Assembly: GCA_003017855.1 (NCBI GenBank)
Contig: PYER01000002.1
Span: 1-64,000, forward strand
Reading direction: 5' to 3'
Source: a filamentous cyanobacterium CCT1
GTDB taxonomy: Bacteria; Cyanobacteriota; Cyanobacteriia; Phormidesmidales; Phormidesmidaceae
Length of the DNA stretch: 64,000 nt
Shown: positions 63,275-63,962 of the stretch, in pieces
Numbering within the stretch: the first letter of the stretch is position 1
Layout of the letters: every line of letters begins with the position of its first letter
The notes under the pieces: generated by a model
Databases searched by the model: none
The model's input: only the letters and a program-made list of their open reading frames with translations
What the model was told of the DNA's origin: nothing
Program-made: the position numbers and the translations under genes

Positions 63275-63655
63275 TCAACCAGGACTATCTTCCTCTACCA
63301 CGGGGGGCTTTTGGCGGCTGGATCGCTTGCGCTTAGATGCTTTGGTGTAGCCAATGGCCTGAATTTCGTCGCTGTTTGGCCCAAACTGCCCCAGAACTGA
63401 CTGCTTCATGGCCAAAACGGCGTTGTGAAAGGCCCACTCCGCCTCGCGGGCGCGATCGCGACCAGCTCTTAATGTCGCTTCCATCAGAACTTCGTCCTGT
63501 TGGCTCTGCCGCATGGCCTGGTAAGCCTGCTGCAAGGTATGATACGACGCCTCTGGCCGCATGGGCGCGTAGTTAGCGATCGCTGCCAAACTGTTTAAGG
63601 CCTGAATATCTTGAGCAATGCGCTTGGGCGCGAGGCGGCGGGTTATGTCGGTCAT
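63275..63655 (-). CDS. Conserved hypothetical protein
   Basis: MTDITRRLAPKRIAQDIQALNSLAAIANYAPMRPEASYHTLQQAYQAMRQSQQDEVLMEATLRAGRDRAREAEWAFHNAVLAMKQSVLGQFG. Confidence 0.6.
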   Translation of the reverse strand: MTDITRRLAPKRIAQDIQALNSLAAIANYAPMRPEASYHTLQQAYQAMRQSQQDEVLMEATLRAGRDRAREAEWAFHNAVLAMKQSVLGQFGPNSDEIQAIGYTKASKRKRSSRQKPPVVEEDSPG

Positions 63656-63761
63656 GGCGGCTGGGGTGGGTGAGTGGAGATGGGGCAAAATGCACGCCGA
63701 TAGCCCGGTGCTGTCTCGCCTAGATTCACAATGCCCAATTGATTAGGCCTTCGCCCAGAGG

Positions 63762-63962
63762 CGAACTGGATTGCGACAGCTGAAAATAGCACTATGGGCG
63801 ATCGCAATGCCATTGCAGCCCATGACAACGCCGTTGTAACGGGTGACAACAGCGTTGCAGGCATGAGAACTGAATTGTGACGTAGAGCAATAGCGTTGTG
63901 AGGATGACGAATTGGGTTTGCGATCGCGACAACGCTATTGCCAGGCCAAACAACGGCCCTAG
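63762..63962. repeat. Degenerate ~21-bp-period array of hyphenated dyads
   Basis: 13-bp dyad cores (ACAACGCCGTTGT, GCAATGCCATTGC etc.) at 63804, 63825, 63846, 63866, 63887, 63929 with weaker units at 63762, 63907, 63950. Confidence 0.7.

Follow-up and report, generated by a model that had tools for sequence, protein, structure and literature searches.

At the right-hand edge of the window, the 64,000-nucleotide stretch analysed here, imperfect 13-bp dyads recur about once every two helical turns. What kind of element is this? The first-pass annotation offered two answers, a DNA-level array of binding sites or a decayed repeat-protein gene. The first of these is supported, on the constraint seen in the dyad cores, and the second falls with its broken reading frames. 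The array is real, under selection and non-coding, and it is part of a conserved arrangement of array and gene A across cyanobacteria. The features of the locus, in window coordinates, are as follows.

63275 to 63655, minus strand: gene A, an open reading frame of 126 aa, helical with a basic tail; an alternative upstream start lies at 63688
63656 to 63745, minus strand: presumed promoter and leader of gene A, between the array and the start codon, with the stretch TTCACAATGCCCA conserved in the orthologue alignment
63762 to 63962, no strand: the dyad array, built of degenerate 13-bp units on the core CAAY-N3-RTTG that step by 20-21 bp over about 9-10 positions, of which two are weak or absent
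63762 to 63774, no strand: dyad 1, CGAACTGGATTGC
63804 to 63816, no strand: dyad 2, GCAATGCCATTGC
63825 to 63837, no strand: dyad 3, ACAACGCCGTTGT
63846 to 63858, no strand: dyad 4, ACAACAGCGTTGC
63866 to 63878, no strand: dyad 5, AGAACTGAATTGT, preceded by a 1-nt deletion private to this genome
63887 to 63899, no strand: dyad 6, GCAATAGCGTTGT
63907 to 63920, no strand: weak unit, ACGAATTGGGTTTG, in the right phase with its core not matched
63929 to 63941, no strand: dyad 7, ACAACGCTATTGC
63950 to 63956, no strand: last half-unit, ACAACGG
64077 to 64316, minus strand: gene B, small, on the 5′ side of the array and just outside the window

The array lies in the gap separating two minus-strand genes, gene B and gene A, and the order along transcription is gene B, a terminator-like inverted repeat, the array, gene A. 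Dyads were scored as matches to CAAYNNNRTTG at 7 or more of the 8 defined positions, with the first base of the 13-mer taken as the coordinate. The seven dyads that score (63762, 63804, 63825, 63846, 63866, 63887 and 63929) form a single chain with steps of 20, 21 or 42 bp. The longest chain of this kind in 300 first-order Markov simulations of the 64-kb window had two dyads, which puts the phased dyads far above chance. The window has nine perfect (8/8) matches, and five of them fall inside the array. The core sequences quoted in the first-pass annotation are all found at the positions it gave, and we agree with its description of the unit at 63907 as weak. The unit expected at about 63783 is absent. 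The 20-bp step from 63846 to 63866 is due to the private 1-nt deletion, the relatives having 21 bp there. It had been suggested that the array might continue past the window, but in the sequence to the right (contig read to 73713) it stops at about 63962, with its last half-unit at about 63950. As to the checks proposed at that stage, Tandem Repeats Finder, run down to a score of 30, missed the array because its units are too diverged, and the comparison with relatives succeeded, finding the orthologous locus and its array in eleven same-genus genomes at 79-88% identity.

The array is not peculiar to this locus, and the decisive evidence comes from gene A, whose link with the array the first-pass annotation was in no position to see. 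Six further copies of gene A occur in this genome, and five of these have upstream autocorrelation peaks at 21, 42 or 63 bp, with unit sequences that differ among the paralogues. The sixth (L151, G000:C229) has transposase-like sequence upstream in place of an array, perhaps because an insertion displaced it. A search of named genomes gave 80 gene A loci in cyanobacteria, among them Nodosilinea, Leptolyngbya, Nostoc, Scytonema, Fischerella, Calothrix and others. Autocorrelation was taken over the kilobase upstream of gene A, and at 73 of the 78 testable loci the strongest lag in the range 10 to 60 is 20, 21, 41 or 42. Downstream of gene A the best lags are scattered, and lags 20/21/41/42 never reach 0.5. 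At an autocorrelation threshold of 0.45, strong arrays are present in 68 of 77 upstream regions, compared with 7 of 280 flanking segments elsewhere in the gene A loci and none of 248 control segments of the window. Among 20 further homologues, mostly divergent and from other families, 18 have an upstream array of 20/21 bp, some of them weak; one distant homologue has a 20-bp array with units 92-94% alike. A gene A copy on a Nostoc megaplasmid also has an array. Between genera the array is conserved and the genes around gene A are not, which makes the array the constant companion of gene A. The arrays are mostly 110-265 nt long, and most of their 3′ ends fall some 90-140 nt short of the gene A start, a minority being 200-600 nt away. 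In Nostocales the intervening gap holds a conserved block, TTACTGTTA...AATGGGYACATTAAATATAT, which we take to be a putative promoter region.

The gene A family encodes proteins of about 120-130 aa, with one to eight copies per genome. Of 291 genomes sampled from the class, 65 have it. The AlphaFold2 model of the product (pLDDT 84, pTM 0.54) has two helices, one short and one of 54 residues, and a basic tail that is poorly ordered. Searches of Pfam, NCBIfam, PHROGs, PADLOC, PDB and fold relatives gave no significant match, and a search of phages found no gene A. Several gene A copies carry one or more stops (for example G022:C12, G046:C824 and G008:C5), indicating that paralogues are lost as well as gained.

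What persists in these arrays is geometry. Unit sequences change between lineages and among the paralogues of this genome, but the step stays at 20-21 bp. Two units are the commonest, ACAATGCCATTGT followed by ATCGACTG and GCATTGTTAATGC followed by ATCGRCTT, each a 13-bp dyad with an 8-bp spacer; other lineages have other dyads, such as TTCCC...GGGAA in L276. A perfect dyad with 5-bp arms occurs in 27 of 51 unit consensuses, a score reached by about 3-18% of shuffled units, although the count is indicative only, the loci being related. In one paralogue group (L208 compared with L152 and L248), exactly 105 nt, or five 21-bp units, is absent in one species, showing that arrays change by whole units.

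What is being conserved at this locus, DNA or protein? In the alignment of 12 Nodosilinea-group orthologues (this genome and the eleven same-genus genomes), the AA/TTG core columns are almost invariant, with a nucleotide diversity (π) of 0.005. The corresponding values are 0.309 at the four-fold sites of gene A, 0.257 in the array spacers, 0.332 at the three central dyad bases, 0.42 at the Y position of the dyad and 0.41 at its R position. The coding alternative is a repeat-protein gene, living or decayed, of the YadA-head-like or hexapeptide kind. One frame does read GDRNAIAAHDNAVVTGDNSVA, and within the central 64 nt the third positions of that frame are the most variable. Only one relative (L007), however, keeps that frame open across the array, and in this genome it is broken, as the first-pass annotation had already seen. 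A TGA in the GDNSVA-like frame is common to six of the relatives' sequences, and several relatives' arrays carry indels of 1-2 nt. In 84 of 84 cases a T stands at the third base of the would-be Val/Ile codon, where a change would be silent or nearly so; this, together with the invariant cores, shows selection acting on the DNA itself. Arrays of other lineages have periods of 20 or 41 bp, through which no reading frame survives, ruling out coding. The arrays also occur in both orientations relative to gene A (15 sense, 4 antisense), and the YadA_head profile scores 13.2 bits here, far under its cut-off of 25. We therefore regard a repeat-protein gene as barely credible. An RNA element, in which the transcribed array would form a row of small hairpins as in a leader or sponge RNA, is improbable in our judgement. 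The array does fold better than shuffled sequence (z of -4.6 on the gene A strand and -2.4 on the other), but good folding is expected of any row of palindromes. The inner Y..R pairs (CG 33, CA 21, TG 21, TA 4) reveal no preference for pairing or wobble on either strand, and no two units covary across species in the 12-sequence alignment. The half-sites vary independently of each other, which fits protein contacts and not base pairing. Either orientation relative to gene A occurs, and an Rfam search gave no match, so that a structured RNA family was set aside.

Still less probable is a selfish or neutral tandem repeat, that is, a minisatellite spread by slippage and found near gene A through hitch-hiking. 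Units are up to 97% identical in some species, one species lacks exactly 105 nt, or five units, and arrays are dispersed in genome G218. The cores, however, are invariant in 12 species while other positions have diverged, the association with gene A is old and dense, and the period stays fixed despite the turnover of sequence.

We consider it probable that the array is a set of tandem dyadic protein-binding sites, a putative cis element that controls or organises the transcription of gene A. Each site would be an inverted pair of RTTG half-sites (CAAY-N3-RTTG), and a repeat of 20-21 bp, equal to two helical turns, would align all of the sites along one helical face. Their most likely occupant is a dimeric DNA-binding protein that binds cooperatively, and the bound array, just upstream of the gene A promoter, would then control or organise gene A transcription. 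We infer protein binding and regulation from the dyads, the helical phasing and the position. The binder could be gene A's own product or another regulator; the unit sequences are so widely different that one regulator cannot bind all of the arrays. Several observations sit less easily with regulation of gene A. The gene A model has no recognised DNA-binding domain or structural relative, at some gene A loci 200-600 nt separate the end of the array from the start, and arrays also exist apart from gene A: G218 has many of them, and in this genus one adjoins an EF-hand-like gene. The link between array and gene A is thus strong, but not exclusive.

A narrower proposal makes the gene A product itself the binder. 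Each paralogue would bind its own matched array, acting as an autoregulator or as part of a centromere-like or nucleoid-anchoring nucleoprotein. The array's constant companionship with gene A, the basic tail and long helix of the product, and the different arrays of seven paralogues in one genome are consistent with this. We nevertheless think it rather unlikely, as no DNA-binding fold was found, no partition ATPase or motor gene recurs nearby, arrays exist without gene A, and co-inheritance at one locus alone would equally tie array type to gene A subfamily. With similar caution, one may imagine an old cyanobacterial two-part module without earlier description: a small basic helical protein, with up to eight paralogues per genome, and its own array, in which array sequence and binder co-diversify while the two-turn geometry stays fixed. 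If true, this would be a self-recognising chromosomal nucleoprotein or regulatory system. A gene family of no assigned function accompanied by a cis element that keeps its helical geometry through sequence replacement offers a direct handle on function. The arrays make a natural series for the evolution of binding-site arrays and their proteins, and specificity becomes testable in genomes that have seven or eight paralogues, most of which carry an array of their own.

Returning to the tandem binding sites that we favour, the array most resembles, by analogy, a tandem operator array in its putative function. Tandem operator or upstream-activator arrays phased at whole helical turns share with it dyadic sites on one helix face upstream of a promoter, the promoter here being presumed. 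DNA-level constraint on the dyads (core π of 0.005 against 0.309 at four-fold sites) and helically phased spacing upstream of the putative promoter are both found. This array differs from such systems in having 8-12 sites and in the replacement of unit sequence between lineages and paralogues with geometry kept. Plasmid centromere arrays (parC-ParR, tubC-TubR, stbDR-StbA) are tandem repeats beside the gene of a small DNA-binding protein. The likeness lies in repeats of roughly two turns or one turn, set in tandem beside a small protein gene. Unlike those, the arrays described here are mostly chromosomal, and the gene A model lacks a ribbon-helix-helix or HTH fold. A parC-like centromere array was rejected on two grounds: no partition ATPase or filament gene recurs across the loci, and no fold match to the gene A model is significant. 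The term iterons, used in the first-pass annotation, gains no support in its plasmid-replication sense, since no rep-like gene recurs at the gene A loci and none was recognised among the neighbour genes read here.

Other repeat families of bacteria also fail to match. REP and REPIN sequences are short extragenic palindromes of bacterial genomes (PMC3733652, PMC3116915). They are dispersed elements of 20-40 bp, whereas this array is ordered, phased and tied to one gene family; many dispersed copies would be expected, and in this genome (G000), where arrays were counted by pattern searches only, pattern pairs occur at the array and two other places only. The HIP1 octamer GCGATCGC is palindromic too and abundant in cyanobacteria (PMC4390886), and it overlaps some spacers of the array. 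It overlaps only the spacers, however, has no tandem phasing, and differs from the core CAAYNNNRTTG. The STRR heptamer repeats of cyanobacteria are likewise tandem and intergenic, but have a 7-bp unit without dyads and are not tied to gene A here; the period of the arrays is 20-21 or 41 bp, and lags of 7, 14 and 28 are not raised upstream of gene A. No description of the array was found in the open-access papers searched. The recurrence of such arrays in front of gene A points to a control or binding element without earlier description.

In Nodosilinea, as in G202/G303, gene B is found on the 5′ side of the array. A profile comparison of the two gene B groups (E of 6e-5, probability 65%) suggests that they may be one family. 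We considered gene B as a third defining part of the arrangement and dropped it, B-like genes being near only 12 of 80 gene A loci. G202 has about a dozen copies of a 66-aa gene B, not assigned to a family and some of them broken (L126-L146, L083, L086-L088, L063 [G202, G264], L065 [G303]). Most G202 copies are followed by a terminator-like hairpin, GGGGCTAC...GTAGCCCC, and then by a dyad array, and the whole looks like a dispersed gene-plus-array cassette.

Arrays away from gene A were also seen elsewhere. G218, in which canonical gene A is absent, has about ten intergenic arrays of near-identical 21-bp units (L067-L070, L089-L091). Its L067 array precedes a very distant gene-A-like gene, 0.5 kb upstream of it, and its L069 array adjoins a DUF928-like gene; such a gene neighbours gene A in L250. 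Within the genus of this genome, a second and more degenerate dyad array (L093:3281-3500, on G000:C540, with L094 and L095) sits 3′ of an EF-hand-like gene (MLTDLQQRKLTKLFSMYDSDYTG) and has no gene A alongside. Heptamer repeats swamped the matches to a broad CAWTG pattern stepping by 21 bp, and this pattern was excluded from the counts. At the other end of the window, short tandem repeats with units of 7, 8, 14 and 17 bp are clustered at 1483-1599.
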